A stretch of DNA of 31,031 nt from a virus. The notes below the pieces were generated by a model, which was given only the letters and a program-made list of their open reading frames with translations, was not told the origin of the DNA and ran no database searches. Made by a program: the position numbers and the translations under genes. The stretch covers positions 1 to 31,031 of IMG/VR virus record IMGVR_UViG_3300017742_000062; one strand, 5' to 3'. Below, piece after piece: positions 3,735 to 20,641 of the stretch; within the stretch, counting starts at the first letter, position 1, and every line of letters starts with the position of its first letter.

Positions 3735-4324
3735 TGGAACAATTGAAAATGCGTTATGAAACCTACTTGTTAAAACACAAGGCAAAACAGAATCGTGGTG
3801 CGAAGTATTCTCGTGATACTGAGAAGACTAAAACCTATCGTGCGGAATGGTCATTCCAATCTCGTGCGGAGATACCTGATTTCAAAGATTTGAAGGAAGC
3901 ACAAAAGTTCGCAAAGAAACTCTACAAGAGTAAAACGTGGATTAAATTGTGGCAGAAATCTGTCGAAGAAGATGTTGGTAAAATCTTCAACGGTCAACCT
4001 CAAGTAGTTGGTATGGAACGTAGAAGTAAAACCATGTCTGGATACACTAACGGTAGTACCGTTACACTTTGTCCTGTTACTGGGATGAACAAGTATGTAC
4101 TGTTACATGAACTTGCACACTGTCTAGGACATATGCACCACGGACGTTCGTTCCGTCAATGCGTCCTGAGTCTGGTTGGTGCATTCATGGGTGCAAAAGA
4201 AAAGAAAATTCTCAAGGAAGAATTTAAGAAAAAGAAACTGGCCTGCGGTGAACCTCGTAAACCAATGAGTTACGAGAACTGGGTTGCGTCAGTAAGACGA
4301 ATGGAGAAAGTACGTGGTGAATAA
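3734..4324 (+). CDS. Putative zinc metallopeptidase (HExxHxxGxxH)
   Basis: A 196-residue basic protein with H-E-L-A-H-C-L-G-H-M-H-H-G (residues 125-137), which fits the HExxHxxGxxH metzincin pattern; the following H-G-R-S-F also resembles the H-G-x-x-F of phage metallohydrolases of the TIGR04338 type. The N-terminal half is lysine-rich with no recognised domain. ATG 3734 is chosen because it overlaps the preceding TAA (TAATG) and has AAGGA upstream; a TTG at 3713 would extend it inside the previous gene. The two adjacent zincins share the 3209 promoter and are likely early proteins. The zinc-site call is from the motif; activity and target are inference. Confidence 0.75.
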   Translation: MEQLKMRYETYLLKHKAKQNRGAKYSRDTEKTKTYRAEWSFQSRAEIPDFKDLKEAQKFAKKLYKSKTWIKLWQKSVEEDVGKIFNGQPQVVGMERRSKTMSGYTNGSTVTLCPVTGMNKYVLLHELAHCLGHMHHGRSFRQCVLSLVGAFMGAKEKKILKEEFKKKKLACGEPRKPMSYENWVASVRRMEKVRGE

Positions 4325-4700
4325 AGCAATAAAACGTGCAGATAAAATTGATAAGATGATGAAGGAGTCTGTAAAACTTTCAGAAAAATTAAGTAAAGCA
4401 GAACAAGAACTACCATCTATGGAAGAGATTGCAAACAGTAATCGATGGTTCAAATCTGCAACACCAAAACAAACATTAGACTGGTATGTCAAATGGGTTG
4501 CATCTTCGATGTTACTCATAGGTATGTCAATGCGTGGTATCGAAGGATTGCAGTTATATGACTTGACAATCAGTATCGGAGGTGTTATACTCTGGTTATG
4601 GGTTTCGATATTGTGGAAAGACCGTGCATTGATTGTTGTTAATTCAGTTGGTCTATTACTACTTACACGAAACTTAATAACTATGTTAAACGGATTATAA
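4314..4700 (+). CDS. Small membrane protein
   Basis: A 128-residue protein: a charged helical N-terminus (about 1-50, K/E-rich, probably coiled), then hydrophobic segments at roughly W-Y-V-K-W-V-A-S-S-M-L-L-I-G-M-S, I-S-I-G-G-V-I-L-W-L-W-V-S-I-L-W and A-L-I-V-V-N-S-V-G-L-L-L-L, giving two or three membrane helices. Similar short membrane proteins occur in marine T4-like phages (DUF6552-like, from memory). Two tandem GTG codons (4314 and 4317) follow a GGAGAAAG ribosome binding site and either could be the start. The gene overlaps the preceding one by 11 bp. Function unknown. Confidence 0.7.
   Translation: MVNKAIKRADKIDKMMKESVKLSEKLSKAEQELPSMEEIANSNRWFKSATPKQTLDWYVKWVASSMLLIGMSMRGIEGLQLYDLTISIGGVILWLWVSILWKDRALIVVNSVGLLLLTRNLITMLNGL
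4563..4591 (+). promoter_or_regulatory. Probable internal early promoter
   Basis: Inside the membrane-protein gene, TTGACA (4563-4568) is followed after exactly 17 bp by TATACT (4586-4591) with an extended -10 TG (TGTTATACT). This matches the other early promoters of the window and lies about 110 bp before the exonuclease start. It could be a chance match in coding sequence, but all three elements fit. Confidence 0.5.
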
Positions 4701-4702
4701 TT

Positions 4703-5380
4703 ATGAATTTTATACACGAACAAATTGAACTGACTGAAATGGATGCGGTCACTACCGATACGGGGAGACAATACAAAACCCCTGACGGAATCAACCTACC
4801 ATCTATTACTACAGTACTGTCGATACTGTCTCGTGATTCTATTGCAAAATGGCGTAAACGTGTGGGTGAGGAAGAGGCAAATCGTGTCTCTACTCGTGCA
4901 TCTGGACGTGGTACACGTGTTCACGAAATCTGTGAGAAGTATGTAGACAATGACCCAAACTATAAAGAAGGTTATACACCTGATATCATTGAGTCATTCA
5001 ATCAGTTGAAACCTATCCTAGATGAACGTCTGACTAAAGTTCATGCACAAGAAGCACCTCTCTACTCTACCCATCTGGGTGTTGCGGGTCGTGTTGACTG
5101 TGTGGGTATCTTTGATGGTAAACTATCCATCATTGATTACAAGACATCTATGAAACCTAAGAAACTAGAATGGGTCAAAAATTACTTCATGCAAGAAGCT
5201 GGTTATGCTGTAATGTGGGAAGAACGTACAGGAATGCCGATTACACAACTCGTTACTATCATTTCTGTGGACAACAATGAACCTCAAGTGTTTATTGAAC
5301 ACCGTGATAACTGGATAAACACATTAAAAAATACCATTAAACAGTACAATGAGGAAAATTCCACTTCCGTTTTATTATAA
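4703..5380 (+). CDS. PD-(D/E)XK exonuclease (RecB/MGME1-like)
   Basis: A 225-residue single-domain nuclease. It has an N-terminal G-R-G-T-R-V-H-E-I-C-E helix (H74), the metal-binding aspartate in A-G-R-V-D-C-V-G (D132), the I-I-D-Y-K-T-S core (D145 and K147 of the (D/E)xK motif), and the Q-E-A-G-Y-A helix (about 165-170) typical of RecB/Cas4/MGME1-type exonucleases. Such enzymes degrade DNA ends and are regular members of marine T4-like genomes, where they probably act in replication, recombination or host DNA breakdown. It starts 2 bp after the membrane gene and may have its own promoter at 4563. The late box at 5376 overlaps its last codons. Confidence 0.85.
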   Translation: MNFIHEQIELTEMDAVTTDTGRQYKTPDGINLPSITTVLSILSRDSIAKWRKRVGEEEANRVSTRASGRGTRVHEICEKYVDNDPNYKEGYTPDIIESFNQLKPILDERLTKVHAQEAPLYSTHLGVAGRVDCVGIFDGKLSIIDYKTSMKPKKLEWVKNYFMQEAGYAVMWEERTGMPITQLVTIISVDNNEPQVFIEHRDNWINTLKNTIKQYNEENSTSVLL

Positions 5381-5383
5381 ATA
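5376..5383 (+). promoter_or_regulatory. T4-type late promoter box
   Basis: TATAAATA in the short gap before the 5420 gene matches the T4 late promoter consensus, with no -35 hexamer needed. By the T4 geometry (box at -13 to -6) transcription would start near 5389, leaving a leader of about 31 bases. It marks the change from early to late genes. Confidence 0.8.
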
Positions 5384-5419: not shown

Positions 5420-6709
5420 ATGCTTCAGTTTAATCAACTTACAGAAACCTCACTAACCTTTGGGGAAATTGTGCGTCCTGATAGGGCGTATCGTGCTGAC
5501 CTATTCATTACTAAGTACAAATCGGGTGAAGCATTCGAGACCACCAAGGGTGATTCGATTGTTCTACAGTATGACCCCGCAATTGAAAAGGCAATACGTA
5601 CAGGTAACAAGAAAGGTTTACCAAAACTAAAGTCACTTGATGGTACGGTCATCGCTTTTGGTCTACTCAAAAAGACTCTAGAGTTTGGTGGTGGTACATC
5701 TGGTTCTGGTGGTGGTTCAGATAATACTCGTGCAACCGAATCCGCACAATGTGTCTATGCACAATTGATGTGGGACAATCCCAAGACCCAATTCTCACCT
5801 GACGAACTCAAGTCTGCATTCCAGAAAACAAATACCGATGCCAAGTTAGACGAGATTCTACTGGGTGATGACGAGTGGATTGCATCATCTATTAATGGTG
5901 CAAAGATTCTTCATAAAGTATTGAAGAAGAAACAGTATACGTGGCATCGTGGTTCACAGTGGGTGTCTAAACTTGAAGAAGTATACAAGAAACTCAATCG
6001 TGAAGAGAAACTATTCAGTAACGTAAACAAATGGACTCCCGCAGATATATGGGCAGTTGCTCGTGGTGCAGAAAACAAATACAACATTCATGATGCACTA
6101 AGTTTCTCAGAACTTAATAATGAACTCTTGAAAGCATATGCCGCTCGTGATATAATGGGTATATCACTCAAGAAGATTGGGAAGAAACCTAAGTTGTCAC
6201 AAGTAAATTTCCGTAAACCGTTTGTTCCACCTCAGTTTACCAAACAAACATTTGGTAAGAGAAACTTCTATGGTGCAATGGACGGATACTTATATGGGTC
6301 TGGTGGATTCCAATTACAGTTCCGATTATTCCCAACCTTCCAATGTGAAATTATTGGTAAGAAAGCAAAACATGGTAAGGTGTCCTTTGGTGGTATCAGT
6401 GATGCAATGAAGGAAGCGACTGGTAGACCTCTGACACAGAAGAAAGTCGTTGAACAATTACTTCTGAAAAACCCACAACAATTCTATGATAACTTCTGGA
6501 AGAACTATTCAATGACTACTGAGAAAGAAAGTAAAGATGAACTGTTTAAGAATCTACAGAAGAAAAAGTTTGAATGGCAAGTATCTAAATACATGGTAGT
6601 AGAACTATTTACTGCAATCAAAGGTCGGGAACAACAAGTACTTGACTATTTGGTTCGTATCGCAAAGTCACAAACAAAGAACTCTGCTGTTCACTTGAAG
6701 GTGTCGTAA
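5420..6709 (+). CDS. Late protein, possible PD-(D/E)XK-like nuclease
   Basis: A 429-residue protein I do not recognise by name. Residues 1-9 (MLQFNQLTE) end in L-T-E, a possible prohead-protease site. Residues 89-100 form a Gly/Ser linker separating a small N-domain from the main domain. N-K-W-T-P-A-D-I-W (203-211) and, 38 residues later, G-I-S-L-K-K-I (247-253) resemble the P-A-D-I-W ... I-S-L-K pattern of many restriction-endonuclease-like folds, with D209 and K251 as candidate catalytic residues and Ser in place of the usual Glu. The nuclease call is inference. It is the first gene after the late box, and its stop overlaps the start of the ligase-like gene. Confidence 0.6.
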   Translation: MLQFNQLTETSLTFGEIVRPDRAYRADLFITKYKSGEAFETTKGDSIVLQYDPAIEKAIRTGNKKGLPKLKSLDGTVIAFGLLKKTLEFGGGTSGSGGGSDNTRATESAQCVYAQLMWDNPKTQFSPDELKSAFQKTNTDAKLDEILLGDDEWIASSINGAKILHKVLKKKQYTWHRGSQWVSKLEEVYKKLNREEKLFSNVNKWTPADIWAVARGAENKYNIHDALSFSELNNELLKAYAARDIMGISLKKIGKKPKLSQVNFRKPFVPPQFTKQTFGKRNFYGAMDGYLYGSGGFQLQFRLFPTFQCEIIGKKAKHGKVSFGGISDAMKEATGRPLTQKKVVEQLLLKNPQQFYDNFWKNYSMTTEKESKDELFKNLQKKKFEWQVSKYMVVELFTAIKGREQQVLDYLVRIAKSQTKNSAVHLKVS

Positions 6710-7929
6710 TGAAGTTTAATGATTTTATAACAGAACAGAAAAACACTCACATGACCCACATTGAGGATAAGGTTCTCTATGGGGGTGTCAATGGTACACG
6801 TCAAGCAATCAATGCACTACGTGAACTCCGTGACATGTTATCTGGACAAACTGACTCTAAACTGTCCACAAAATGGGATGGCGCTCCCGCAATCTTCTGT
6901 GGTCAAGACCCTAGTGACGGAAACTTCTTTGTTGCGAAGAAAGGTATCTTTGCGAAGAATCCTAAAATCTACAAGTCTGAAGCGGACATTAAAGCGGACA
7001 TGAGTGGTGACCTTGCAGACAAGATGAGTCTTGCATTGAAACATCTACCAGAACTTGGTATTAAAGGTGTGATTCAAGGAGACTTCTTGTTTTCAAAACC
7101 AGACGTTAGTACCGATACTATTGATGGTCAGAAGTATACAACCTTTCACCCGAATACAATCATCTATGCAATACCCTATGACCAAGCGGATGCAGTCCGT
7201 AAAGCAAAGATTGGTATTGTATGGCATACCACCTATACTGGTAAAGACTTTATGTCGATGAAAGCGACATATGGTGTAAACGTGTCGAAATTTAAGAGTT
7301 CTGTAAACATATGGTCACAGGATGCAATGTTGCGTGATGTGTCTGGTGCGACTATGAATAAGAAGGAATCCGCAGAGGTAACCAAACATTTGTCCGATGC
7401 GGGTAAGATATTCAATAAGATATCTGGTTCTACTCTGCGTGAGTTAGAAAATAATAAAGACCTTGCAACCCTGATTGAACAGTACAATAACACTTTTGTG
7501 CGGAATCAAACTGTGATTGGCAACACTAATACGCACGTTCAAGGTCTAATCAAGTGGTTGAACGAAAAATTTAAGAAAGAAGCAGATAAACGTAGTACTG
7601 ATAAAGGTAAGATGGTACAATTTAAGAAGTTAGAAGAGTTAATGAAGTTCTTCTCTCCAAGAAATAAAAAGAACTTAGTTGCAATGTTTGACTTACAAAA
7701 GAATATAGTTCTTGCAAAATTAAAACTTATAAATAAACTTAATAGCATAAGTTCATATGACACCTTTGTTCAGACCAAGAAAGGTTATAAGGTAAAGACT
7801 GGTGCAGAAGGATTTGTTGCTATTGACAAACTGGGTGGTGATGCGGTCAAGTTGGTTGACCGTCTTGAATTTTCATATAATAACTTCAGTCCAGATATAC
7901 TGAAGGGATGGGATAAACCAAAGAGGTAA
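6709..7929 (+). CDS. DUF6267-like, ligase-type nucleotidyltransferase
   Basis: A 406-residue protein, conserved in marine T4-like phages (DUF6267 from memory). Its sequence carries the ordered motifs of the ATP-dependent ligase/capping-enzyme fold: motif I K55-W-D-G-A-P, a strand F-F-V-A-K-K-G-I-F (73-81), motif III-like V-I-Q-G-D-F-L-F (121-128), motif IV E367-G-F-V-A-I and motif V K381-L-V-D-R. A long helical, lysine-rich insert (about 200-350) lies between. If active it would adenylate K55 and join or modify nucleic acid ends. The N-terminus MKFNDFITE ends in I-T-E and looks like a head-targeting peptide, so the enzyme may be packaged. The fold call is motif-based; the reaction is inference. 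Confidence 0.7.
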   Translation: MKFNDFITEQKNTHMTHIEDKVLYGGVNGTRQAINALRELRDMLSGQTDSKLSTKWDGAPAIFCGQDPSDGNFFVAKKGIFAKNPKIYKSEADIKADMSGDLADKMSLALKHLPELGIKGVIQGDFLFSKPDVSTDTIDGQKYTTFHPNTIIYAIPYDQADAVRKAKIGIVWHTTYTGKDFMSMKATYGVNVSKFKSSVNIWSQDAMLRDVSGATMNKKESAEVTKHLSDAGKIFNKISGSTLRELENNKDLATLIEQYNNTFVRNQTVIGNTNTHVQGLIKWLNEKFKKEADKRSTDKGKMVQFKKLEELMKFFSPRNKKNLVAMFDLQKNIVLAKLKLINKLNSISSYDTFVQTKKGYKVKTGAEGFVAIDKLGGDAVKLVDRLEFSYNNFSPDILKGWDKPKR

Positions 7930-7932
7930 ACT

Positions 7933-8316
7933 ATGTCCAAACCAATAGGACTAAAAGAATTCTTAAAAATTCTAGAGCAACCAGATGAAGCGTTGAATAT
8001 GCAACAACGTATGAAACTGGCACGTTCGCTCAAGAAGAATAAAGCAAAAATTGCAATGGGTCGCAAACGTGCGGCACGTAAAGTTGCATCTCCAGAGAAA
8101 CTCAAAAAACGTGCAATGAAACAAGCACGTATGACTTTCCTCAAGAAAATCACTAAAGGTGCTGATAAGGGTGACCTATCTATGGGTCGTAGAGCATCAA
8201 TTGAGAAACGCCTAGATAAGATGAAACCCAAAATACAGAAACTCGCAAAGAAATTACTTCCAAAAGTTCGTAAGGGTGAATTGGAACGTAAACGAGGTGG
8301 AAACAAAAGTGATTAA
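7933..8316 (+). CDS. Highly basic conserved protein
   Basis: A 127-residue protein with about one third Lys+Arg and long stretches such as R-K-R-A-A-R-K and R-A-M-K-Q-A-R-M. The N-terminus G-L-K-E-F-L-K-I-L-E-Q contains I-L-E, a possible gp21-type cleavage site. The L-S-M-G-R-R-A-S-I-E-K-R-L and L-A-K-K-L-L-P-K-V-R-K blocks are conserved features of a family I recall from marine T4-like phages. Composition suggests a DNA-binding protein inside the head. It starts 3 bp after the ligase-like gene and overlaps the next gene by 8 bp, so the genes are co-expressed. Confidence 0.75.
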   Translation: MSKPIGLKEFLKILEQPDEALNMQQRMKLARSLKKNKAKIAMGRKRAARKVASPEKLKKRAMKQARMTFLKKITKGADKGDLSMGRRASIEKRLDKMKPKIQKLAKKLLPKVRKGELERKRGGNKSD

Positions 8317-9697
8317 AGATTTTAAATCATATCTAGTCGAAGAGGCAAAAGAAGTTTATTTTACATTTGGTAGAATGAACCCGCCTACGATTGGACATGG
8401 AAAAGTATTAGATACTATAGCAAAAAAAGCAAAGGGTGCAGACTATAAAGTCTATGTATCCCAATCAACGGGCGCTAAAGACCCGTTGTCATATTCTGAC
8501 AAAGTAAAACACCTACGTAAGATGTTACCAAAACATGGTCGTAATATCATGGTAGATAAAGGTGTAAGAAATGTATTTGATATTGCTGCAAAATTGTATG
8601 ACCAAGGATACAAAAAAATAACCATGGTAGTCGGTGAAGACCGTCTCCGTGAGTTTGAAGTATTGTTGAACAAATACAACGGTAAGAAAGCACGTCATGG
8701 GTTCTATAACTTTGAATCAATCAATGTTGTATCTGCGGGAAGGAGAGACCCAGACGCAGAAGGTGTGGAAGGAATGTCTGCATCTAAACAACGTGCGAAC
8801 GCAAAGGACAATGATTATCAAGCGTTTATTCAAGGTGTTCCATCTGGAATGTCTGACCGTGATACACGTAAGTTGTTCAATGATGTAAGGAAGGGGTTAG
8901 GTCTCAAGGAAGAGACATCTTTCAAACGTCATATTGAAATGGGTCATCTTTCAGAAACAAGAGAACAATTCGTCAAAGGTGAGTTGTTTGAACTTGGTGA
9001 TACTGTTGTTATTAAAGAAAGCGAAGAGGTCGGTGTCATTACAGTCCTTGGTGCAAACTATGTCATTGTAGAATGTGGTGACAGAAAGATGCGTAAGTGG
9101 TTAGATGCAGTAGAATTAGTAGAGAAGAAAGCTGTACAAGACCCTGACATCAAAGACAAAGAAGGTACTCAACCCGCCAAGTATCACAAGGGACTAAAGA
9201 AGTCTACTAAAAACAAACGTGACGCACACTTCAAGAAACATGGTAAGAAAGCAGACGATGATGAGTCTGCATATAAGCCAGCGCCTGGCGATAAGACTGC
9301 AAAGACTAAACCATCCAAGTACACCAAAGCATTCAAAGACATGTATGACGAAGATTGTTGGGATGGGTACAAACAAGTTGGTATGAAGAAAAAAGGTAAC
9401 AAGAGTGTTCCTAATTGCGTACCAGTAAATGAGTATGGCGGCCCTAAAATCTCCAAAGCAGATTACCTGAAGAAACAACGTAGTGGTATTACTATCTCTA
9501 CATCCGAAAATGCGGGTGAAGAAGGAACAAATAAACTTCTCAAGAAGTACAAAAAAGATACTCCAATGGAAGATGCAGTTGCAAACGCAAAAGATAGAAT
9601 CAAAGCAGAGAAGGAAAGGGACAAAAAGAAACATGATGGAATTCTTGACCGTGCCAGACTTGCTCGTGCAAAAGCAAAAAATAGGGAAACCAAGTGA
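8309..9697 (+). CDS. NMNAT-like nucleotidylyltransferase with C-terminal extensions
   Basis: A 462-residue multi-part protein. Residues 17-165 are an HxGH-type nucleotidylyltransferase: Y-F-T-F-G-R-M-N-P-P-T-I-G-H (TIGH at 27-30) and G-M-S-A-S-K-Q-R (155-162), as in phage nicotinamide-nucleotide adenylyltransferases. Residues about 224-272 form a KOW-like barrel (E-L-G-D-T-V-V-I-K through K-W-L-D-A-V-E-L-V). The remaining 190 residues are lysine-rich and disordered, with C-W-D-G-Y-K-Q-V-G-M (350-359), a motif I associate with marine phage virion proteins. GTG 8309 is preferred over GTG 8276 because the resulting N-terminus (MIKDFKSYLVEE) matches its neighbours and ends in L-V-E. An H-I-E (208-210) between domains may be another cleavage site. 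Role in NAD metabolism or head content is inference. Confidence 0.75.
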   Translation: MIKDFKSYLVEEAKEVYFTFGRMNPPTIGHGKVLDTIAKKAKGADYKVYVSQSTGAKDPLSYSDKVKHLRKMLPKHGRNIMVDKGVRNVFDIAAKLYDQGYKKITMVVGEDRLREFEVLLNKYNGKKARHGFYNFESINVVSAGRRDPDAEGVEGMSASKQRANAKDNDYQAFIQGVPSGMSDRDTRKLFNDVRKGLGLKEETSFKRHIEMGHLSETREQFVKGELFELGDTVVIKESEEVGVITVLGANYVIVECGDRKMRKWLDAVELVEKKAVQDPDIKDKEGTQPAKYHKGLKKSTKNKRDAHFKKHGKKADDDESAYKPAPGDKTAKTKPSKYTKAFKDMYDEDCWDGYKQVGMKKKGNKSVPNCVPVNEYGGPKISKADYLKKQRSGITISTSENAGEEGTNKLLKKYKKDTPMEDAVANAKDRIKAEKERDKKKHDGILDRARLARAKAKNRETK

Positions 9698-9921
9698 ACA
9701 AATTTAATCAACATATCGAAGAAGGTGCGTTGGCAGACAAGTCCAAGAAGTCTGGTATCTCTGTAGACACTCTTCGCAAAGTTTATAATCGTGGTGTTGC
9801 CGCATGGAAGACTGGTCATAGGCCAGGCACTACTCCTCAACAATGGGGATATGCACGTGTGAACGCCTTCATAGTAAAGAAGAAAAAAGGTGGGTTGAAC
9901 CACGATAAGGATTTAGCGTAA
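9694..9921 (+). CDS. DUF5824 domain protein
   Basis: A 75-residue protein that is almost entirely the DUF5824 domain: K-S-G-I-S-V-D-T-L-R-K-V-Y-N-R-G, then A-W-K-T-G-H-R-P-G-T-T-P-Q-Q-W-G-Y-A-R-V-N. The domain is widespread in T4-like and other large phages, with no known biochemical role; the helix plus conserved W/G/R residues suggest nucleic-acid contact. It starts at a GTG overlapping the previous stop (GTGA). The N-terminus MNKFNQHIEEG carries an I-E-E site like the T4 internal-protein leader peptides, which suggests head packaging. Confidence 0.8.
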   Translation: MNKFNQHIEEGALADKSKKSGISVDTLRKVYNRGVAAWKTGHRPGTTPQQWGYARVNAFIVKKKKGGLNHDKDLA

Positions 9922-11108
9922 TGAAAACATTAGAACAAATACTCGAAGGTAAAGACTTCGAACCTCATATGATGTATGACCCAAAGACTGGTAAAGGTTA
10001 CAAGGCAGAAAAACCTGAAGACCATGAACATATGAAGAAGATGGGATACTCTCATGAGAAACCAGAAGTCAAAGAAGACTTAAAAGAAGAGATGATTTCT
10101 TACAGAGTTAAGAAGATGCAGAAACCTGAAGAAGATAAGTTTCAAAAATCTGCTAAGATGATGGGTTTAAAGTATACTAGTAATAAAGGTAGAGACGATA
10201 CAGTAATCGTTATAAGTGGCACTAAAAAGAAACTCAGAGACTTTGATTCAGTAGTTAGAGGCAAATCATCATACGGTGACCCTTCAACAATCAAACATTT
10301 TGACGAAGGTCAGTTCTGGGGTCAAGACAAAATGGCAAAATCTATAGACAAAAAGATGTCAAAGACTCATGTCAGACTTACAAGAGACAGTAAGGGTGGA
10401 TACGAAAGAGCGACAATACCTAAGAAAGACAAAAAGAAAATTGCACAAATGAAGAAAGACGGATACAAAATAGACCCTACGTTTTCTAAAGAGTCTTTAG
10501 ATGAACAACACCAAGAAGCATTAGATATGTTGCAAGAAAACTACAGAACTCTTGCACGTAAAGGTATGGGTACTGAGACTAAGAAGGATGCACGAGTAGG
10601 TTTGGAGTTAGATTTCTATGAGACTGAACGTGGTGACAAAGTATTCGGTAAGATTATCAAAGTAACTGGTACTGGATACACTGTACAAGCAATGGAACGT
10701 GGTAATAGTAAGAAGTATACCTTCAAGTTCCATGACCGTGCAAAAGCAAAGAAACTTCTTGAAGCAAGAGACTTCATGGAAAACTACCGTGCAAAACGTG
10801 ATGCAATGAGAGATATGCCTAAACGTGGAAAAGACTCTGCGGATGATGACATTGAAGCGAATGACGATGACCGTAAAGCTGCATCTAAGAATGTTCTTAT
10901 GCAAATCCGTAAAGCATCTGACCTACCTAAAGGTGGCCCGATTGAATTTGAAGGTGGTAAGAAAGGTAAGATTTCACAAGACGATGCAAAGAAAATATCT
11001 AAACTATTTGATATATTAAAGAAACCATCTGACAAACAAAAGTTTCAGAAAGTAATATCAAAAGACTTGAGAAGTATTCAAGCACTATTAAAAAGGTTAG
11101 GTAAATGA
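9921..11108 (+). CDS. Lysine-rich late protein, probable head-internal
   Basis: A 395-residue, very lysine-rich protein with no recognised enzyme domain. The leader MKTLEQILEG contains I-L-E followed by G, a very close match in style to T4 internal-protein leader peptides. Later blocks include a G-x-E-L-D-F-Y-E ... K-I-I-K-V-T-G-T-G-Y-T-V-Q-A strand region (about 230-270) and a related pair of E-N-Y-R segments (near residues 209 and 290), perhaps an internal duplication. The C-terminal 70 residues are helical and basic. Several internal L/I-x-E sites could be processed. The start overlaps the preceding stop (TAATG). Likely a core or packaged protein. Confidence 0.65.
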   Translation: MKTLEQILEGKDFEPHMMYDPKTGKGYKAEKPEDHEHMKKMGYSHEKPEVKEDLKEEMISYRVKKMQKPEEDKFQKSAKMMGLKYTSNKGRDDTVIVISGTKKKLRDFDSVVRGKSSYGDPSTIKHFDEGQFWGQDKMAKSIDKKMSKTHVRLTRDSKGGYERATIPKKDKKKIAQMKKDGYKIDPTFSKESLDEQHQEALDMLQENYRTLARKGMGTETKKDARVGLELDFYETERGDKVFGKIIKVTGTGYTVQAMERGNSKKYTFKFHDRAKAKKLLEARDFMENYRAKRDAMRDMPKRGKDSADDDIEANDDDRKAASKNVLMQIRKASDLPKGGPIEFEGGKKGKISQDDAKKISKLFDILKKPSDKQKFQKVISKDLRSIQALLKRLGK

Positions 11109-11314
11109 AAGATTTAAAGAATTTTATGGAAGCAAAAAAGATGAAAGGACTGAGTCTTTATGGTTCTGAAATATCGAACATAAAAGGAAAAGACGGTAAA
11201 CTATATAATGCAAAACCCGTACTTATGGGTGGTAAATTATCATATAGAGTTGAAGACCAATTTGGTAAATTTGAAACTCTTCCGTTAAAAAAATTCGCTG
11301 CTAAGTTCGGTTAG
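11105..11314 (+). CDS. Small late protein, probable head-internal
   Basis: A 69-residue basic protein: leader MKDLKNFMEAKK (F-M-E, a near match to the L/I-x-E rule), then a small beta-rich part with G-K-D-G-K-L-Y-N-A-K-P-V-L-M and S-Y-R-V-E-D-Q-F-G-K-F-E. Its ATG overlaps the preceding TGA (ATGA) and its TAG is directly followed by the next ATG. No known domain. The matching leader and tight coupling put it in the same presumed packaged-protein group. Confidence 0.65.
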   Translation: MKDLKNFMEAKKMKGLSLYGSEISNIKGKDGKLYNAKPVLMGGKLSYRVEDQFGKFETLPLKKFAAKFG

Positions 11315-11569
11315 ATGAAAAAGTTTAGTGCATTCTCTACAATCTATGAGGAAGAAAAACGTCTTCATAAATTAAAAGAAAAAAGTATGTTAATTACTGG
11401 AGATGACCACGCCCTAGATATAGTTCTAGGAGACTTAAAAAAGAAAATGTTTAATAACATTCGACATAACAAAATGGGTTTTGTGAATGGTATTGCAAAG
11501 ATGGTAAGATATAAGTTGGATAAGGCTAAGCAACAAAAAGGTAAAGTGGCACTAGTGCCGATTAAATAG
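11315..11569 (+). CDS. Small late protein, probable head-internal
   Basis: An 84-residue basic protein starting immediately after the previous stop. The leader MKKFSAFSTIYEEE contains I-Y-E followed by E, consistent with a prohead-protease site. The rest is mostly helical, with D-H-A-L-D-I-V-L-G-D-L-K-K-K-M and a C-terminal K-V-A-L-V-P-I-K. No family recognised. The next gene begins 1 bp after its stop. Confidence 0.65.
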   Translation: MKKFSAFSTIYEEEKRLHKLKEKSMLITGDDHALDIVLGDLKKKMFNNIRHNKMGFVNGIAKMVRYKLDKAKQQKGKVALVPIK

Positions 11570-11570
11570 T

Positions 11571-12311
11571 ATGCCTAGAAATTATAAAAAAGAATATGAG
11601 AATTATCATTCTCGACCTGACCAAAAGAAAAGACGTGCAGCACGTAATGCCGCTCGTAAAATGCTAAAGGGAAGAAAAGAACTTACCGATGAGAAAGATG
11701 TTCATCATAAGGATAATGACCCATTAAACAACGATAAATCTAATCTCTCTATTGTATCACAAAAGTATAACAGAAGAGAACCTAGATTGAGGACTGAAAT
11801 GAAAACATTTAGTGACCACTGTAAATGTGGACACGAATCTGGACTAGTAGAGAGTAATCTTTACAGAGTAGGTTCAGAAGCGTATTTTAAATACTGGAGA
11901 GACATTCGAGAAGAGTGGGAAAAAGGTAACGTAATGATTGAACCATCTGAAGTGGAAATCATGGAAGGTGACCTTGGTAAATTCGCACGTTTTAATAATG
12001 AGAATGTTGCACTAGATTGTATCTTCGAAGAGGAGAAACAACCAGAACTAAACAAACCAAAAGCGGGTGGGCCGAAGAAATACTATGTGTATGTCAAAGA
12101 CCCCTCTTCTGGTAATATTAAAAAAGTATCTTGGGGTGACACCACTGGACTCAAAGTCAAGTTGAGTGACCCGAAGGCACGTAAGTCATTTGCTGCAAGA
12201 CATGATTGTGCAAATAAGACAGACAAAACAAAAGCGGGATACTGGGCATGTAGATTGCCTAGATATGCTAAACAATTAGGATTAAGTGGTGGAGGAAATT
12301 TCTTTTGGTAA
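11571..12311 (+). CDS. HNH-like domain fused to DUF5872 domain
   Basis: A 246-residue two-domain protein. The N-terminal 70 residues are basic with K-D-V-H-H-K-D-N-D-P-L-N-N-D-K-S-N-L (about 42-59), which matches the core of HNH nucleases (H-H-x-D-x-N-x-x-N-N-x-x-N-L). A middle part has C-K-C-G-H. The C-terminal 75 residues match DUF5872: K-Y-Y-V-Y-V-K-D-P, K-K-V-S-W-G-D, then K-S-F-A-A-R-H-D-C and A-G-Y-W-A-C-R, ending G-G-G-N-F-F-W. Between them lies C-I-F-E-E-E (I-F-E), a possible processing point. DUF5872 occurs in many marine T4-like virion-region genes. Nuclease activity is plausible but not proved. Confidence 0.7.
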   Translation: MPRNYKKEYENYHSRPDQKKRRAARNAARKMLKGRKELTDEKDVHHKDNDPLNNDKSNLSIVSQKYNRREPRLRTEMKTFSDHCKCGHESGLVESNLYRVGSEAYFKYWRDIREEWEKGNVMIEPSEVEIMEGDLGKFARFNNENVALDCIFEEEKQPELNKPKAGGPKKYYVYVKDPSSGNIKKVSWGDTTGLKVKLSDPKARKSFAARHDCANKTDKTKAGYWACRLPRYAKQLGLSGGGNFFW

Positions 12312-12574
12312 AACCTTATACTGAGTTGAAGTGTAGTAATGGTAAGATAAGGGTTTTTAGGGAAAATGTCAAAGAAGAAGATTTAATCTGGCACAGAGAT
12401 TTAAAAGATAGAAGTGTACATGTACTGGAAGGTCATGGATGGTGTTTACAGAAGGATAACGAAGTACCACTTGACCTGTTAGAAGGACATACTTACAGTA
12501 TTAACAAGATGGAATATCATCGTGTTATTAAAGGTAAAGGTGATTTGGTTATTAGAATATATGAAGGTACTTAA
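12305..12574 (+). CDS. Cupin-like protein
   Basis: An 89-residue protein with a single small cupin-type barrel: H-V-L-E-G-H-G-W-C-L-Q (about 39-49), then L-L-E-G-H-T-Y-S-I-N-K-M-E-Y-H-R-V-I-K-G (58-77) and a final L-V-I-R-I-Y-E. The glycine, histidine and glutamate positions fit a metal-binding cupin, but the substrate is unknown. The start is a TTG supported by a strong GGAGG 9 bp upstream inside the previous gene; no ATG or GTG fits. It overlaps both neighbours. The N-terminus lacks the leader peptide of the surrounding genes. Confidence 0.65.
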   Translation: MVKPYTELKCSNGKIRVFRENVKEEDLIWHRDLKDRSVHVLEGHGWCLQKDNEVPLDLLEGHTYSINKMEYHRVIKGKGDLVIRIYEGT

Positions 12575-13253
12575 TGTAATTTATCGTGGTGGGGCTGGTG
12601 GTGAATTTTTTGGTGGACTCTTACAAGAACTTGAAGAGATTGCAACCAAAGAAATCATAACTAATCCTGAGACGGAAAGATGGTTTTTGAAGAGAGAAGA
12701 TTACCAGTCACATGAAATAGAAGTGACCAGAGGGAATCCTAGAGAAGTTCAGAAACCAAAATGGGATAAAGACTTGTGGAATGTTAGACTAGACCACGGG
12801 TATGGATTCCCAATTAATCAAGAGTTCTGGACAGAGTATTGTTGGAACGATTGGGATGAGACGAAGACTATTGTGTTCCTCTCAAAAACTAGAGAAAGTT
12901 TGGATTATACTCAACAACTTGCAAAGTGTAAGTTAGTTAGAGATGAAGACAGAGAAGCTGGTATGAATATGATTAAGGATGGTATTCTTGCTCATGACCA
13001 GTTTTGGAATAGACCGTGGGAATCACAGGCAGAGATGTTTGCGATGTGGATGGATACAATACCCACAGAACATTCCATGTTATTGGTTGACCCTTGTGAG
13101 TTGTTTTTTAATAACAAGGATGATACCAAGACAGAATTAAAGAGAGTCAGTGAATATTTGGGTATGAAAATACCAAGTAACTGGCAAAATAAGGTAGAAA
13201 GTTATAGAGTTAGAAATCAAACTCTTATAAATAACACTATAACTTACATTTGA
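12561..13253 (+). CDS. Possible sulfotransferase-like protein
   Basis: A 230-residue acidic protein beginning MKVLNVIYRGGAGGEFFGGLL. The first strand plus glycine-rich loop resembles the phosphosulfate-binding loop of sulfotransferase-like P-loop proteins, and the C-terminal L-L-V-D-P-C-E-L-F-F ... V-S-E-Y-L-G-M-K-I-P resembles their C-terminal helix region. The K/T of a true Walker A is missing. ATG 12561 is preferred over the in-frame ATG 12522, which would lie deep in the cupin gene; the overlap is 14 bp. The family call is weak; a nucleotide-binding role is the most I can support. Confidence 0.5.
   Translation: MKVLNVIYRGGAGGEFFGGLLQELEEIATKEIITNPETERWFLKREDYQSHEIEVTRGNPREVQKPKWDKDLWNVRLDHGYGFPINQEFWTEYCWNDWDETKTIVFLSKTRESLDYTQQLAKCKLVRDEDREAGMNMIKDGILAHDQFWNRPWESQAEMFAMWMDTIPTEHSMLLVDPCELFFNNKDDTKTELKRVSEYLGMKIPSNWQNKVESYRVRNQTLINNTITYI
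13226..13233 (+). promoter_or_regulatory. T4-type late promoter box
   Basis: TATAAATA lies in the last codons of the 12561 gene. The predicted start near 13239 is 27 bases before the ATG of the 13266 gene, leaving room for its GGGAAC ribosome binding site. This spacing supports a real late promoter for 13266 onward. Confidence 0.65.
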
Positions 13254-13265
13254 TGGGAACAAGTA

Positions 13266-13580
13266 ATGCCACAAGAAACGCAATCAGCTAAACTTACTAG
13301 AATAGAAGTAGAATCTAGCAACAGGTTTGACCGAATTGAGAACAAAATCGACAAGCTTGCTGAGGCATTAGTAGCACTTGCTCGTGTCGAGGAAAAGATG
13401 ATATCCGTGGAACAGAACAATAGTAATAACTTCGACAGAATGAATCGTTTCTCTCAGAAGTTAGATGAGATAGAAAAAAAGGTTGATGCAAATGCAGCAA
13501 CTGTTTCAATAATTAACAAAGTAGTTTATTTAATAAGTGCGGCAATAATTGCTAGTGCTGTAAAATTCTTTTGGATGTAG
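13266..13580 (+). CDS. Coiled-coil protein with C-terminal membrane anchor (XhlA-like)
   Basis: A 104-residue protein. Residues 8-80 form a long amphipathic coiled coil with heptads (R-I-E-V-E-S-S-N-R-F-D-R-I-E-N-K-I-D-K-L). Residues about 83-103 are one membrane helix (V-V-Y-L-I-S-A-A-I-I-A-S-A-V-K-F-F-W-M). This layout is that of XhlA/haemolysin-type accessory lysis proteins and of small phage membrane adaptors, but no sequence-specific motif confirms it. It has its own late box at 13226. Confidence 0.65.
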   Translation: MPQETQSAKLTRIEVESSNRFDRIENKIDKLAEALVALARVEEKMISVEQNNSNNFDRMNRFSQKLDEIEKKVDANAATVSIINKVVYLISAAIIASAVKFFWM

Positions 13581-13591
13581 GAGAACATAAC

Positions 13592-14836
13592 ATGAGAACT
13601 AAAGATATGAAATCGCTAATGGATGCCTACAACCAAGTCATCCTCGGTGAATCAGTAGAAATTGACGAAGCACGTCAAATGAAAGACCCTAAGAAAGACT
13701 CTATGGTCTCTAAGGGTGGTAAAACAATCGTAATCGATAAGTCAAAAGAGAAAGAATACCTCAAGAAAGGTTGGTCTCTCGCAGAGAAGAAGAAACTTGA
13801 CCCTGTCGATGACAAAGCAAACGATAAGAAATTCAAAGACCGTAAAGACAAAGACATCGACAATGATGGTGATGTAGATAGTTCTGACGAATATCTTCAC
13901 AAAAGACGTAAAGCAACCGATGATGCAATCGATGGTGGTAAAAAACCTGCTAAGAACGAAGGTAAAAGAGGTTTTATCAAAGCTGCTAAAGACGCAAAAG
14001 CAAAAGGTGAAAAAGACTTTATGTTTGCGGGTAAGAAATACAATTGCGAAGATGCATTGAACGGAGACGAAGAAGAGTCCGAAGATAAACCTAAGAAGAA
14101 GAATCCTTTTCCACCTAAGAAAGACGGTGAAGAAAAAGATGAGAAAGATTCTGAAGATAAGGATGATGACAAAGAGTCCGATGACGAAGAAGAGAAAGAA
14201 GTACCTAAAGTAGCTGGTAAGAAAGATGACAAGAAGAAAGTTGCATCTAATGCCAAGACTGCCGAAATCTCTAAGATTGGTGAAAACTCTGCGGATGCAA
14301 AAGCGGCTGGTGTTGGAAGAACAGGTGAGACTTACAGAGACAGAATGAAAAGATTAGGTAAGACACAATCTGAATCATTAGACTTAGTTGATGCAATTAA
14401 AGACCTACATAAGATGTGGGAAAGTGCTGCAAAGAAGAGTGTTAAAGGTGCTACAGATAAAGGTGAAGAGATTGATTCTAAACAGTCACCTAAGTCTAAA
14501 GAATTTGACAACGCTCATGATAAGTCTGATAAGAAAGTTGAAGACAATGTCGAAGATGCAAAAAAGAAAAACAAAGTTGCTCAAGACGCAACTAAGGCAA
14601 AGTCTGGTAAACGTCCTGTAGACCACGAAGTTGGTGACAAGAATGTTGTTAAGTCTACCGAAGTTAAGGAAGACGCAGAACAAATAGTTAAACAAGCACA
14701 GGATATCATTCAAGGTAAGACTATGTCTGAGATTGCTGACTTAAACTCTGAGAAACCAAAGAATCCTCATGATGCACGTACTAGAGAAGCAAAAGCATTC
14801 TTGAAACGTATGGCTAAGAAACAAGGTACAGTATAA
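13592..14836 (+). CDS. Highly charged head-core-like protein with EF-hand motif
   Basis: A 414-residue, extremely Lys/Asp/Glu-rich, largely disordered protein, typical in composition of T4-like prohead core or internal head proteins. The first 26 residues (MRTKDMKSLMDAYNQVILGE then V-E-I-D-E) end in I-D-E, a possible gp21-type site. A canonical EF-hand loop is visible at D88-I-D-N-D-G-D-V-D-S-S-D99, suggesting calcium binding. A low-complexity acidic stretch (about 150-215) follows, then helices near L-D-L-V-D-A-I-K-D-L-H and a C-terminal A-K-A-F-L-K-R-M-A-K-K. ATG 13592 is supported by AGGAG; a GTG/ATG further up is inside the previous gene. It overlaps the next gene (TAATG). Confidence 0.7.
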   Translation: MRTKDMKSLMDAYNQVILGESVEIDEARQMKDPKKDSMVSKGGKTIVIDKSKEKEYLKKGWSLAEKKKLDPVDDKANDKKFKDRKDKDIDNDGDVDSSDEYLHKRRKATDDAIDGGKKPAKNEGKRGFIKAAKDAKAKGEKDFMFAGKKYNCEDALNGDEEESEDKPKKKNPFPPKKDGEEKDEKDSEDKDDDKESDDEEEKEVPKVAGKKDDKKKVASNAKTAEISKIGENSADAKAAGVGRTGETYRDRMKRLGKTQSESLDLVDAIKDLHKMWESAAKKSVKGATDKGEEIDSKQSPKSKEFDNAHDKSDKKVEDNVEDAKKKNKVAQDATKAKSGKRPVDHEVGDKNVVKSTEVKEDAEQIVKQAQDIIQGKTMSEIADLNSEKPKNPHDARTREAKAFLKRMAKKQGTV

Positions 14837-15467: not shown

Positions 15468-16208
15468 ATGAATCTTCTGGCGAAGGCAAACGAATATATT
15501 GTAGGAAATAGTGGATACGGAATCATAGGTCTGTTCTACATAAGTCTTGTAGTTGTCGGATATGATTTAGCAATCAATCAGAACTGGTCATTATTATGGT
15601 GGTATCCAATAGGAACTGTCATAATGTTAATACTCAGTTCTGCATTCTATCACCGTGCAATCGCACACCCAACATGGAAATGTCCAAACTGGTTGAGATA
15701 TCCTTTAACGTTTATCTCTACTGGTCTTGGATTAGGTGCAGTAATCCCTTGGGTCGCAACCCATAGACAACACCATTATCATTCAGAAGAAGAAGGTGAC
15801 CCACATGGGCCTCAGTATTCTCTTCTACACAATCTGAATATATATCTTACTAAACCAAACTTTATGTATGTCAGAGACATACTGAGAGACCCTCTATATG
15901 TTGCACAACTAAAATACTTTTGGTTATGGGCAGCAATTACTATTGGTCTCTTTAGTGCAATGTTTGGATTTGTTGAATGGGCATTCGTATATGTTACCAT
16001 GATTGTACACCAAGTATTCTTGTTGTATGTTGGTCATATCAGATGGATTCCACAGAATGGATGGAAAGGACATTTCCTTGGACTCATTTATTCACCTGAA
16101 ATCTATCATCTAAAGCATCATGATAAACCCATGAACGCTAGACTTGGTAAAGTTGATTTACCCTATTTGTTATTAATTAAGTGGTTCAAACACAATGGTG
16201 TTAAATAG
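15468..16208 (+). CDS. Fatty acid desaturase
   Basis: A 246-residue membrane di-iron desaturase. The three histidine boxes are present: H62-R-A-I-A-H67 (HxxxxH), H99-R-Q-H-H103 (HxxHH) and H214-L-K-H-H218 (HxxHH). Four or more hydrophobic segments flank them. The D-P-H-G-P motif after box two is typical of acyl-CoA/acyl-lipid delta-9 desaturases. It would introduce double bonds into host acyl chains and change membrane fluidity. It is a little short for the family but has all metal ligands. It overlaps the 16195 gene by 14 bp, and its placement beside adenylation-like genes suggests linked lipid chemistry. Confidence 0.85.
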   Translation: MNLLAKANEYIVGNSGYGIIGLFYISLVVVGYDLAINQNWSLLWWYPIGTVIMLILSSAFYHRAIAHPTWKCPNWLRYPLTFISTGLGLGAVIPWVATHRQHHYHSEEEGDPHGPQYSLLHNLNIYLTKPNFMYVRDILRDPLYVAQLKYFWLWAAITIGLFSAMFGFVEWAFVYVTMIVHQVFLLYVGHIRWIPQNGWKGHFLGLIYSPEIYHLKHHDKPMNARLGKVDLPYLLLIKWFKHNGVK

Positions 16209-17175
16209 AAATCTAATTCATTCCGACTTTATATTATACCCACATAGAATAAAACGAGAAAAGTTCTTTGAGGAGATTGACCGTGCAAAGAACTATCTAT
16301 CAACACGATTCTCTAAGGGTGACCATATAACGATTGGATATACCAGTAATGACATAAAAGGTCTTGCGTTTATATTCGCATCTTTTGAACTGGGTATCGC
16401 AGTAAAAGTAATGAGTGAACCATTCTTCTGTGGCCCTGAGTTTGACCCAAAACGTTTTGAACATCTATTGACATTGATGAAAGACTATGATACAATAGAC
16501 GGACGTTGGATACTTGATGGTATGGTCAACGATAGAGATGACCCTATACTAGGTGGACGTGCTACAAAAAGAGATGTCTTTGGTAGTTCATTCCAAAAGT
16601 TAATAAATGAACTGGGTGTCCCAAACTATTATATGGGAGATTATAAGTCTTCTTCAACAAACGTGATTGATGTTGATGTGAGACCAACAGATAACGCAAC
16701 ATCTTATTTTGAAGGTGGAGATTGGTTATCAGTTCCCCCAGTAAAATTTAAATCACATGAATATATATTAGACCAAGTTAATAAACAACACATATGTTTT
16801 GAAAACAAGGTTGTTGGATTAACAAAAAACATACATCATGATAATGCATTGGAAAGATTAATACTACCCGCAATGATGCAGAGTGGTAACCTTGTTGACT
16901 TCCAGATTCCTGAACCAGACTTTGGTGGATTCTTTGTTACAAATGACAAGATAAGTGCTGAACAAATGTTTGAATATATTATGATATATGGAAATAAACT
17001 TATTGATGCATTTAAAATTGATATTATTATGTCACCAACAGACGATACATTATTTAAATTTCTTAATCACAGAGATAAAGACTTTGATAAAACACTAGAA
17101 GTTATACTTCATGATGAAATTACCGATGAACACAGAAAATGGGAATCTAAGATGGATATTAAATTTCTGATATAA
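16195..17175 (+). CDS. Degenerate ANL adenylation-like protein
   Basis: A 326-residue protein that I recognise only by comparison with the intact ANL protein at 24718. Shared segments in the same order: G-D-H-I-T-I-G-Y ... I-F-A-S-F-E-L-G (versus G-D-I-V-T-I-G-I ... I-F-A-C-A-E-L-G), then L-T-K-N-I-H-H-D-N-A ... L-I-L-P-A-M-M (versus S-R-N-L-H-H-A-S-A ... L-L-P-A-L-M), then D-I-I-M-S-P-T-D-D-T-L-F-K-F-L. The A3 nucleotide loop (S-T-S-G-T-T in the relative) is replaced by F-E-G-G-D-W-L-S-V-P-P, so it should not adenylate. It may be a partner subunit or a binding protein. The GTG start lies in the desaturase gene. Confidence 0.6.
   Translation: MVLNRNLIHSDFILYPHRIKREKFFEEIDRAKNYLSTRFSKGDHITIGYTSNDIKGLAFIFASFELGIAVKVMSEPFFCGPEFDPKRFEHLLTLMKDYDTIDGRWILDGMVNDRDDPILGGRATKRDVFGSSFQKLINELGVPNYYMGDYKSSSTNVIDVDVRPTDNATSYFEGGDWLSVPPVKFKSHEYILDQVNKQHICFENKVVGLTKNIHHDNALERLILPAMMQSGNLVDFQIPEPDFGGFFVTNDKISAEQMFEYIMIYGNKLIDAFKIDIIMSPTDDTLFKFLNHRDKDFDKTLEVILHDEITDEHRKWESKMDIKFLI
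16468..16496 (+). promoter_or_regulatory. Possible internal early-type promoter
   Basis: TTGACA (16468-16473), 17 bp, TACAAT (16491-16496) with an extended -10 TG (TGATACAAT), inside the 16195 gene. The fit is good, but the nearest downstream start (17193) is about 700 bp away, so this may be chance. Confidence 0.3.
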
Positions 17176-17192
17176 CTTATATACATACCTAT

Positions 17193-17561
17193 ATGATGAA
17201 ACTTACAAAAGATAACCTTACGATATACGCTGCTCAGCATTATCATAATCCACGTTGTATTGACTCAGAAGAATTCTTCGAAGATTTAAAGAAATTCAAA
17301 TACATTAAAAGGTTACTCAATAGGTATCGTGATACAGATATCCTGTCCGAACGACTTATACTAAATCATCTCATTGTAATATTCAATGTGTTTGGTTTTG
17401 AAGCGGGACTTAACATCTTAGAACTCAAGATAGAACTTGAACATTGGGGAGTTTTAAAACCCTTCCTAATATTCCTCAAGGCAATCAAGAATACTGAATA
17501 CACCAACATTGAAATGGATGCAAAAGTAGTTGAGGCACTAAGAAAAATAGCACGAGAATAA
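17193..17561 (+). CDS. Conserved marine-phage protein (DUF7207-like)
   Basis: A 122-residue helical protein matching, from memory, a family very conserved in marine T4-like phages: the signature runs L-T-I-Y-A-A-Q-H-Y-H-N-P-R-C, then E-E-F-F-E-D-L-K-K-F-K-Y-I-K-R-L-L-N-R-Y, then L-S-E-R-L-I-L-N-H-L-I-V-I-F-N-V-F-G. No catalytic motif is seen, so a structural or regulatory role is likely but unproved. Two ATGs in tandem (17193, 17196) are possible starts and no clear ribosome binding site precedes them. The stop overlaps the next ATG (TAATG). Confidence 0.7.
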   Translation: MMKLTKDNLTIYAAQHYHNPRCIDSEEFFEDLKKFKYIKRLLNRYRDTDILSERLILNHLIVIFNVFGFEAGLNILELKIELEHWGVLKPFLIFLKAIKNTEYTNIEMDAKVVEALRKIARE

Positions 17562-19879: not shown

Positions 19880-19887
19880 TATAAATA
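19880..19887 (+). promoter_or_regulatory. T4-type late promoter box at a start codon
   Basis: TATAAATA ends 5 bases before the ATG of the 19893 gene. By T4 geometry (box at -13 to -6) the transcription start falls on the A of that ATG, implying a leaderless message. There is no Shine-Dalgarno sequence in between. Confidence 0.75.
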
Positions 19888-20486: not shown

Positions 20487-20641
20487 AGAAATTCAGAGAT
20501 TTCGAAGAGGACATGACAACCAGTGCCGTTGCGGGTGCTGGCGATGATAGTACGACTGTCCCTGTCCATTTGAAAAAGAAGAAGAAGAAACCAGAAGTAC
20601 TTTCTAGGTTTAAAGAAATGAGAAAACGTTGGAGTAAATAA
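20483..20641 (+). CDS. Small late protein with head-targeting-like leader
   Basis: A 52-residue protein: MKKFRDFEEDMTTSAVAGAG, then acidic D-D, a proline-rich V-P-V-H-L, six consecutive lysines and F-K-E-M-R-K-R-W-S-K. Overlaps at both ends (ATGA with 19893, TAATG with 20641) show that it is a real coupled gene. The start (M-K-K-F-R-D-F-E-E) resembles the leader peptides of the 5.4-14.8 kb block, and the M-T-T-S-A-V segment recurs in small marine phage proteins I recall. Function unknown; a minor head protein is plausible. Confidence 0.7.
   Translation: MKKFRDFEEDMTTSAVAGAGDDSTTVPVHLKKKKKKPEVLSRFKEMRKRWSK

Follow-up and report, generated by a model that had tools for sequence, protein, structure and literature searches.

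Bacteriophage T4 packages the enzyme Alt and a set of small internal proteins in its head. In the internal proteins IPI, IPII, and IPIII, a short N-terminal leader of hydrophobic and aromatic residues ends in (L/I)-x-E, where the prohead protease gp21 cuts; the IPII and IPIII leader is MKTYQEFIAE, and T4 genetics assign targeting to IPIII residues 4 and 7 and processing to residues 8 and 10 (PMC9026906), which correspond to positions P7, P4, P3, and P1. The ADP-ribosyltransferase Alt also travels in the head, from which it is ejected after processing by gp21 (PMC9026906), but it is a different enzyme from those described below, has an N-terminal propeptide of 7 residues, and is cut at the C-terminus too. 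In P1, a different phage from the T4-like one considered here, an N-terminal segment sends DarB, a protein of an anti-restriction system, into the head, and the authors found no N-terminal consensus among the Dar proteins (PMC9024508); an N-terminal head-directing segment would be common to both phages. We consider here the IMG/VR virus record IMGVR_UViG_3300017742_000062, analyzed over its entire 31,031 bases (the window), and in particular a run of eight consecutive genes (5420-11569) whose products each begin with a leader of 9-15 residues ending in (L/I/F)-x-E. We think it very likely that these leaders are T4-type capsid targeting sequences (CTSs), by which the proteins would be packaged, cleaved by gp21, and ejected with the DNA. 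The leader-bearing genes of the window are as follows.

5420-6709, + strand: 429-aa protein (phrog_1462); leader MLQFNQLTE at 5420-5446
6709-7929, + strand: DUF6267 protein, predicted RNA/DNA-ligase-like; leader MKFNDFITE at 6709-6735
7933-8316, + strand: small very basic protein, pI 11.2; leader MSKPIGLKEFLKILE at 7933-7977, containing GLKEFLKILE
8309-9697, + strand: predicted cytidylyltransferase/NMNAT-like protein, GTG start; leader MIKDFKSYLVE at 8309-8341
9694-9921, + strand: DUF5824 domain as a gene of its own (PF19141, 3e-20), GTG start; leader MNKFNQHIEE at 9694-9723
9921-11108, + strand: 395-aa charged protein; leader MKTLEQILE at 9921-9947
11105-11314, + strand: 69-aa basic protein; leader MKDLKNFME (F-x-E type) at 11105-11131
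11315-11569, + strand: 84-aa basic protein; leader MKKFSAFSTIYE at 11315-11350
13592-14836, + strand: 414-aa highly charged protein (100 K/R, 96 D/E); long variant leader MRTKDMKSLMDAYNQVILGE at 13592-13651, with I-D-E further on

An initial annotation of this DNA had proposed that the proteins encoded between 5420 and 14836 start with a short peptide bearing (L/I)-x-E. All nine N-termini that it quoted are present in the sequence, and the proposal stands for the dense run 5420-11569, with 13592 as a longer variant, but not for 11571, 12305, 12561, and 13266, whose leaders are unconvincing; these four genes, and 4703 upstream, were rejected as members. The start of the nucleotidyltransferase, which the list of open reading frames places at 8276, is most likely the GTG at 8309. 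As with the T4 internal proteins, hydrophobic or aromatic leaders ending in (L/I)-x-E go together here with a gp21, a late promoter motif, and mostly basic proteins (pI 9.8-11.2 for the small proteins of the block); unlike in T4, where the leader sits on small internal proteins, it is also found here on a ligase-like protein and a nucleotidyltransferase. Of the eight leaders, only those of 6709, 8309, and 9694 have the exact IPIII register; their targeting positions P7 and P4 are hydrophobic or aromatic, with H at P4 in 9694.

The source is most likely a marine T4-like phage near Kyanoviridae. IMGVR_UViG_3300017727_001923 (G001; 149,135 bases) holds the window at 34935-65968 with 99.9% identity, and the two are the same phage; a DUF6267 search named as relatives Phage C48C1 (64% identity), Stenotrophomonas phage DLP6, Methylophilales phage Melnitz, Pelagibacter phage HTVC008M, and many cyanophages, and a near-mode search of the phage collection with the DNA of the block gave zero matches. 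Gene starts in G001 were set by our own gene caller, blind to the leaders, which recovered 151 of the 206 annotated genes of C48C1 (121 with an identical start) and called 171 genes in S-CREM2 against 221 features in the record; it under-counts small genes, and some starts may be wrong.

On G001, 7/13 block genes and 23/163 others (Fisher p=0.0018) have the motif of the initial annotation, [LI]-x-E, the E falling within residues 7-16; about 10% of internal positions have it too. A fuller pattern, in which a hydrophobic residue is followed at fixed spacing by [LIVF]-x-E, is found in 8/13 and 10/163 (Fisher p=2e-6), its strict form with an additional aromatic position in 3/13 and 3/163 (p=0.006), and the T4 IPIII register in 3/8 genes of 5420-11569 and 6/168 others (p=0.005). 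When residues 2-26 were shuffled in each of the 13 block proteins, 5000 trials gave a mean of 0.81 matches and a maximum of 6, never 8; in eight genomes in which the block was defined by synteny, 26/81 block genes and 91/1341 others match. These enrichment p-values are optimistic because the patterns were composed after viewing the block, and conservation in relatives, together with published virion proteomes, is better evidence.

The initial annotation had suggested aligning the leaders across related phages. In the DUF6267 relatives, the stretch from the start to the conserved domain, which opens with KNTHMTHIED, contains [LIVFM]-x-E in 79/79 of the loci counted (80 loci less L187, whose match begins at residue 51 and lacks the N-terminus). 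With the last matching site of each leader used for counting, E is found at P1 in 79 leaders, I or L at P3 in 75, F, Y, or H at P4 in 58, and F at P7 in 58; 77 of the leaders are distinct, the remaining positions vary (MNFKEHITE, MDNFASYITE, MKSFTNYVPLQE, and MIKSFSTHVLSE are examples), and the length ranges from 8 to 16 residues where the start is assigned. Of the 77 relatives with an assigned start (a start codon is not assignable in L166 and L185), 56 have exactly the IPIII register, that of the T4 leader MKTYQEFIAE. In alignment A2 (46 sequences, excluding L156 and L178, which have an in-frame stop directly after the leader), F3 and E9 reach column identities of 0.85 and 0.91, the rest of the leader has 0.15-0.46, and residues 11-20 have 0.83-1.0. 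To judge from these alignments, the leaders evolve as a signal would. Among distinct orthologue N-termini (minus-strand matches and matches starting past query residue 70 being excluded), a CTS-like start is found in 83/86 for the nucleotidyltransferase 8309, 89/100 for DUF6267, 22/29 for 5420, 5/6 for 11105, and 3/3 for 11315; for 9694 the figure is 34/68, with [LIVFM]xE in 53/68. Comparison genes, in contrast, give 1/18 for 12305, 0/7 for 12561, 0/17 for 19893, and 0/1 for the HNH gene 11571. The S-SM1 nucleotidyltransferase has the leader in all 80 loci kept of 126 found in IMG/VR (74-100% identity), which the search, by the way it works, restricts to close relatives.

Gene fission provides a natural test of the leader. 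In HTVC008M and Melnitz, a single protein contains both the nucleotidyltransferase domain and, downstream of it, the DUF5824 region matching 9694; in the window and in C48C1, DUF5824 is a separate gene with a leader of its own, MNKFNQHIEE or MITFKKYLEE. That the split gene has its own leader supports the CTS reading. Other relatives of 9694 have different starts, often retaining L-x-E (MNLYE, QLIE, QLTE).

Counterparts of the nucleotidyltransferase have been detected in purified virions of three related phages: i) in S-SM1, 41 virion proteins include T4-GC190, a putative citidylyltransferase (PMC3037559), whose N-terminus is MKKFSAFLNE|AERSF; ii) in S-CREM2, the cytidylyltransferase ORF154 was found with 3 unique peptides (PMC10665884), and begins MKNFSSFLTE|ADEKQ; and iii) in S-SCSM1, the NMNAT ORF91 (gp91) was detected (PMC9602691), and begins MKSFLQFLKE|AAESG. 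All three are orthologues of 8309 and, by sequence, all start with a T4-type leader; the three phages differ from ours in that their DUF6267-like proteins, where examined, have no leader. Those of S-CREM2 and S-SCSM1 are also outside the virion lists, which fits the leader reading, in two cases only. Neither leader, protease site, nor targeting mechanism is mentioned in the accessible passages of the three proteome papers, and among open-licence PMC papers we found none that deals with leaders of this kind in cyanophages or with NMNAT leaders. Of the virion-detected proteins of S-CREM2, 5/52 carry the strict leader, as against 1/120 undetected called genes (p=0.010), the five being the SAM hydrolase ORF6, ORF13, the kinase ORF14, ORF136, and ORF154. 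The first three, and a fourth protein, are located as follows in OR473000.

3837-5081: SAM hydrolase (SAM lyase family by Pfam, 2e-19); leader MKDFDSFLEE
7704-10313: ORF13; leader MKDLHSFLTE
10310-10546: kinase; leader MKRFDAFLTE
10579-12846: Cas9-annotated nuclease, with no family in Pfam; LRFASFMAE at residues 17-25

The kinase of S-CRM01, reported in virions according to PMC10665884, starts MISFDQFLSE; three other kinases of its family have less canonical starts (MKSLKLFEGQE, MKSLKIFEAQE, and MKRLGRLLAE).

A number of results weigh against reading the leaders as CTSs: i) five of the eight leaders (5420, 7933, 9921, 11105, and 11315) have a shorter or longer spacing than IPIII, the hydrophobic residue being present at another distance, although exact spacing does not define a CTS, because T4 IPI, an accepted CTS protein, also misses the IPIII register (the longer spacer of the 11315 leader is built as in IPI); ii) the short motif is not specific, because the exonuclease 4703, in which L-T-E is apparently part of the domain and whose HTVC008M counterpart lacks it, has [LIVFM]xE in 28/28 distinct N-termini (CTS-like in 6/28), and 13266 matches the CTS pattern in 10/41, which we judge to be false positives of the pattern; iii) the block taken alone is not significantly enriched in HTVC008M, DLP6, P-HM2 (0/9), Syn9, or S-CREM2, and there is no leader on the cytidylyltransferases of HTVC008M and P-HM2 or on the DUF6267 proteins of P-HM2, Syn9, and S-SM1; iv) the leader is poorly kept in 7933 (CTS-like in 26/81 distinct N-termini) and 9921 (6/17), and the membership of 7933 is weaker because several orthologues keep a hydrophobic start without the E; v) in S-CREM2 the broader pattern gives 5/52 and 3/120 (p=0.055), and the result there is support rather than a clean test, because the pattern was tightened after some hits were known; vi) the corresponding comparison in S-SCSM1 is not significant (1/48 flagged virion proteins and 1/184 others; the record flags 48 by our count, the paper gives 45), and the leader is not the sole route into the virion, because gp89, 90, 92, and 93 around the NMNAT are flagged as virion proteins without a canonical leader; and vii) the authors of the S-CREM2 and S-SCSM1 proteomes themselves say that such enzymes may be packaged or may be left over from infection (PMC10665884, PMC9602691).

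Point iv bears on how many of these proteins are cargo. Judged by sequence, 7933, 9694, and 9921 have the leader in part of their relatives only, and the true cargo might be restricted to the well-conserved set (5420, DUF6267, the nucleotidyltransferase, and perhaps 9694), with 7933, 9921, 11105, 11315, and 13592 as weak or chance resemblances. The low counts for 7933 and 9921 speak for this, as do those for 13592 (2/20 distinct N-termini fit the short pattern), the small samples behind 11105 and 11315 (6 and 3 distinct N-termini), and the failure of 7933, 9921, 11105, and 11315 to fit the exact IPIII register; on the other hand, the eight matches among 13 block genes exceed the maximum reached by any shuffle, and several relatives of 13592 repeatedly have a different, longer start, such as MEAYLEVVSE, in which S-E, D-E, or the like precedes KKxDP. 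We regard so narrow a cargo as possible but doubtful.

Point vii, together with the behavior of 4703, which suggests that an N-terminal L-x-E can belong to a domain, raises the more radical possibility that the leaders are conserved extensions of domains, or features of the translation start, that play no part in packaging, and that detection of the orthologues in virions reflects contamination. This seems very improbable to us: leader length and most leader residues vary while P7, P3, and P1 are mostly constant; leader residues 1-9 have pLDDT <50 in the AlphaFold2 models of both DUF6267 and 5420; the leaders occur on unrelated proteins, including a P-loop kinase of the same phage, in which the leader, with variations, is found in 51/51 related loci; and in both S-CREM2 and S-SCSM1 it is the leader-bearing nucleotidyltransferase, not the leaderless DUF6267-like protein, that appears in the virion list, albeit in these two cases only.

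If the leaders are indeed CTSs, what is the cargo? The 6709 protein belongs to DUF6267 (PF19782, 3e-103). Its AlphaFold2 model (pLDDT 86, with a helical part at about 218-345) has RNA or DNA ligases as all 13 best rows in VIA-align (Z 8.4-6.5; Naegleria RNA ligase 8.4, T4 Rnl2 7.4, T4 Rnl1 6.6), although a Z near 8 can reflect a common arrangement and row 14, DnaK, also reaches 6.5; Foldseek with the model gave no match at E 0.001, and a PDB sequence search only one weak, irrelevant match. The residues K55-W56-D57-G58 (K-x-D-G), QGD at 123-125, EG(F/Y)V at 367-370, K381, and R385 are present in 46/46 aligned sequences, and D384 of K-x-V-(D/N)-R is N in three of them. We take K-x-D-G to be active-site motif I, and QGD, EG(F/Y)V, and the region of K381 to be motifs III, IV, and V, of the covalent polynucleotide ligases. 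DUF6267 differs from Rnl2, Rnl1, and the Naegleria enzyme in the helical part and in having only 10-14% sequence identity with them, and these three align with the model. The model suggests that DUF6267 probably has a ligase-like fold, and we infer that it is probably an active ligase-family enzyme with a helical insertion.

The 8309 protein matches PHROG cytidyltransferase families (phrog_3041, 8e-70; a second, 4e-64) and has TxGH and SxSxxR motifs, TIGH in the window, and [TH]xGH near the start in 137/137 loci. PF01467 scores 19.6 bits, under the cut-off of 21, and 30.4 and 22.3 with the orthologues of S-SM1 and S-CREM2; a PDB sequence search gave no match. By sequence, it is cytidylyltransferase/NMNAT-like. 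For the 5420 protein, no fold could be recognized: the AlphaFold2 model (pLDDT 77, pTM 0.44) has a best VIA Z of 2.9 and no Foldseek match at E 0.001, nor any convincing match to a PDB fold, and a weak Colicin-DNase match (E 0.089) is not taken as evidence. The enzyme folds that the initial annotation had assigned to leader-bearing proteins are reasonable for DUF6267 and 8309. Family searches matched none with the 9921 protein, which has a 41-residue module in common with Melnitz gene 20, itself beginning with the leader MTRYNKTMSE. The charged tails of 13592-14836, 8309-9697, and 9921-11108 contain short modules (DIDNDGDVDSSDEYL-like, CWDGYKQVGMKKKGNKSVPNCVP, and HMMYDPKTGKGYKAEKPEDH), some of them common to relatives.

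The machinery needed to process such leaders is encoded by the same phage. G001 has a gp21-type prohead protease (PF03420, 135 bits, E 1e-40), found also in the eight named phage records searched and not found in the other 7 contigs searched (53-103 kb). Its capsid protein has GFMTE, with E at residue 56 and M at P3, as a predicted cleavage site; in nine phages other than G001 the capsid protein has [LI]-x-E within 51-65, T4 with SFLTE at 65 and relatives with LLTE, FLAE, VLTE, FLSE, FLGE, ILTE, LLGE, or FLTE. The capsid protein also starts MQSYDNLIE, and the gene directly before gp21 (G001 141302) has a leader-like start, MKSYKEILQE. These two like motifs, and the fact that several leader proteins are small and basic, could indicate that the leaders are core-binding tags of scaffold-like structural proteins which shape the prohead, nothing active entering the host. 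We think this unlikely, because the ligase-like motifs of DUF6267 and the [TH]xGH of the nucleotidyltransferase are invariant, which suggests that catalysis is selected, and because leader proteins of S-CREM2 are annotated as a SAM hydrolase, for which Pfam confirms the SAM lyase family, and a kinase.

Upstream of the block lies a candidate late promoter.

5376-5383, + strand: T4-type late promoter motif TATAAATA, separated by 36 nt from the 5420 gene

This motif alone is not significant, because the window contains 4 exact matches where 2.4 are expected. A check of 31 of 41 loci of 5420 orthologues, several of them near-identical, found that NATAAATA starts 31-72 nt upstream in 31/31, with about 0.05 expected per locus; TATAAATA also begins 13 nt upstream of the G001 gene that precedes gp21. 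To judge from these motifs, the block is probably expressed late. Further TATAAATA motifs at 13226-13233 and 19880-19887, directly upstream of 13266 and 19893, are possible late transcription starts. In composition, conservation, and genomic context the leaders are what is expected of CTSs cut by gp21, and the comparison with T4 made by the initial annotation is largely borne out.

In the mechanism that we favor, the hydrophobic and aromatic residues of the leader would bind the prohead core late in infection, so that the protein is built into the prohead; gp21 would cut after (L/I/F)-x-E during digestion of the core, leaving the mature protein free in the shell before DNA is packaged; and the cargo (ligase-like DUF6267, the NMNAT-like nucleotidyltransferase, 5420, and the small basic proteins) would be ejected along with the DNA, to act in the first minutes of infection, ahead of phage gene expression. 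Packaging in this phage, cleavage, injection, and an enzymatic role are what we infer from the evidence above; injection into the host is made plausible by the example of T4. Because a counterpart of one enzyme, bearing the same kind of tag, has been found in purified virions of related viruses, the proteins probably enter the bacterium together with the viral DNA. If so, many marine T4-like phages, infecting ocean bacteria such as Synechococcus, Prochlorococcus, and Pelagibacter, would inject preformed enzymes, including a ligase-like family. Several groups have found the NMNAT-like enzyme in cyanophage virions, and in their accessible passages two of the papers leave cargo or contamination undecided; the leader suggests how the enzyme gets into the head, allows the mature N-terminus to be predicted to the residue, and points, by sequence alone, to further cargo. 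If the reading is right, uncharacterised phage genes could also be searched with it, in a simple way, for early-acting or anti-defence proteins. Alt and small internal proteins are what T4 packages by this route; in the large group of marine phages considered here, the leader marks a ligase-like protein, along with a nucleotidyltransferase, a kinase, and other proteins.

Leaders of this kind are enriched in the block but are not confined to it. Besides the gene before gp21, leader-like starts are found in two further genes of the phage.

20483-20641 of the window, + strand: 52-aa protein outside the block, start MKKFRDFEED; relatives MKGFKQFTEE
83322-84002 of G001, outside the window, minus strand: P-loop kinase (AAA_33, Zeta_toxin), leader MIKFKKFMTE

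The kinase has a weak polynucleotide kinase match, and its HTVC008M homologue (gp129) sits within the block of that phage. We tentatively suggest, as a serious possibility that falls short of an even chance, that the CTS leader is a portable cargo code in Kyanoviridae and their relatives for shipping ready-made enzyme kits, here a nucleic-acid repair and nucleotide kit made up of DUF6267, the NMNAT-like protein, and the P-loop kinase. Were this true, kinase, ligase, and nucleotidyltransferase would be co-delivered at entry, before phage gene expression, and the kit might repair nucleic acid cut by host defences or restore nucleotides or NAD; S-CREM2 would similarly deliver its SAM lyase, kinase, and Cas9-annotated nuclease.

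The orthologues of the 52-aa protein are CTS-like in 5/5 distinct N-termini, and in a two-sequence comparison it aligns weakly (E 0.015) with T4 gp61.1 (MKTFKEFIKED), a T4 hypothetical protein that itself appears to bear a CTS. T4 gp61.2 was considered as a homologue of 19893, and a comparison spoke against it. The HNH gene at 11571-12311 matches, from residue 77 (MKTFSDHC...), the end of the Melnitz cytidylyltransferase protein, and a second start is possible there because GAGG directly precedes the internal ATG. Elsewhere in the window, enzyme-like genes follow one another in 15468-19861 and 24718-26752: the AMP-binding match of 24718 is weak (5e-5, under the cut-off), and 15468 and 18461, neither of which was matched by Pfam, resemble by eye a desaturase and an asparagine synthetase, respectively.

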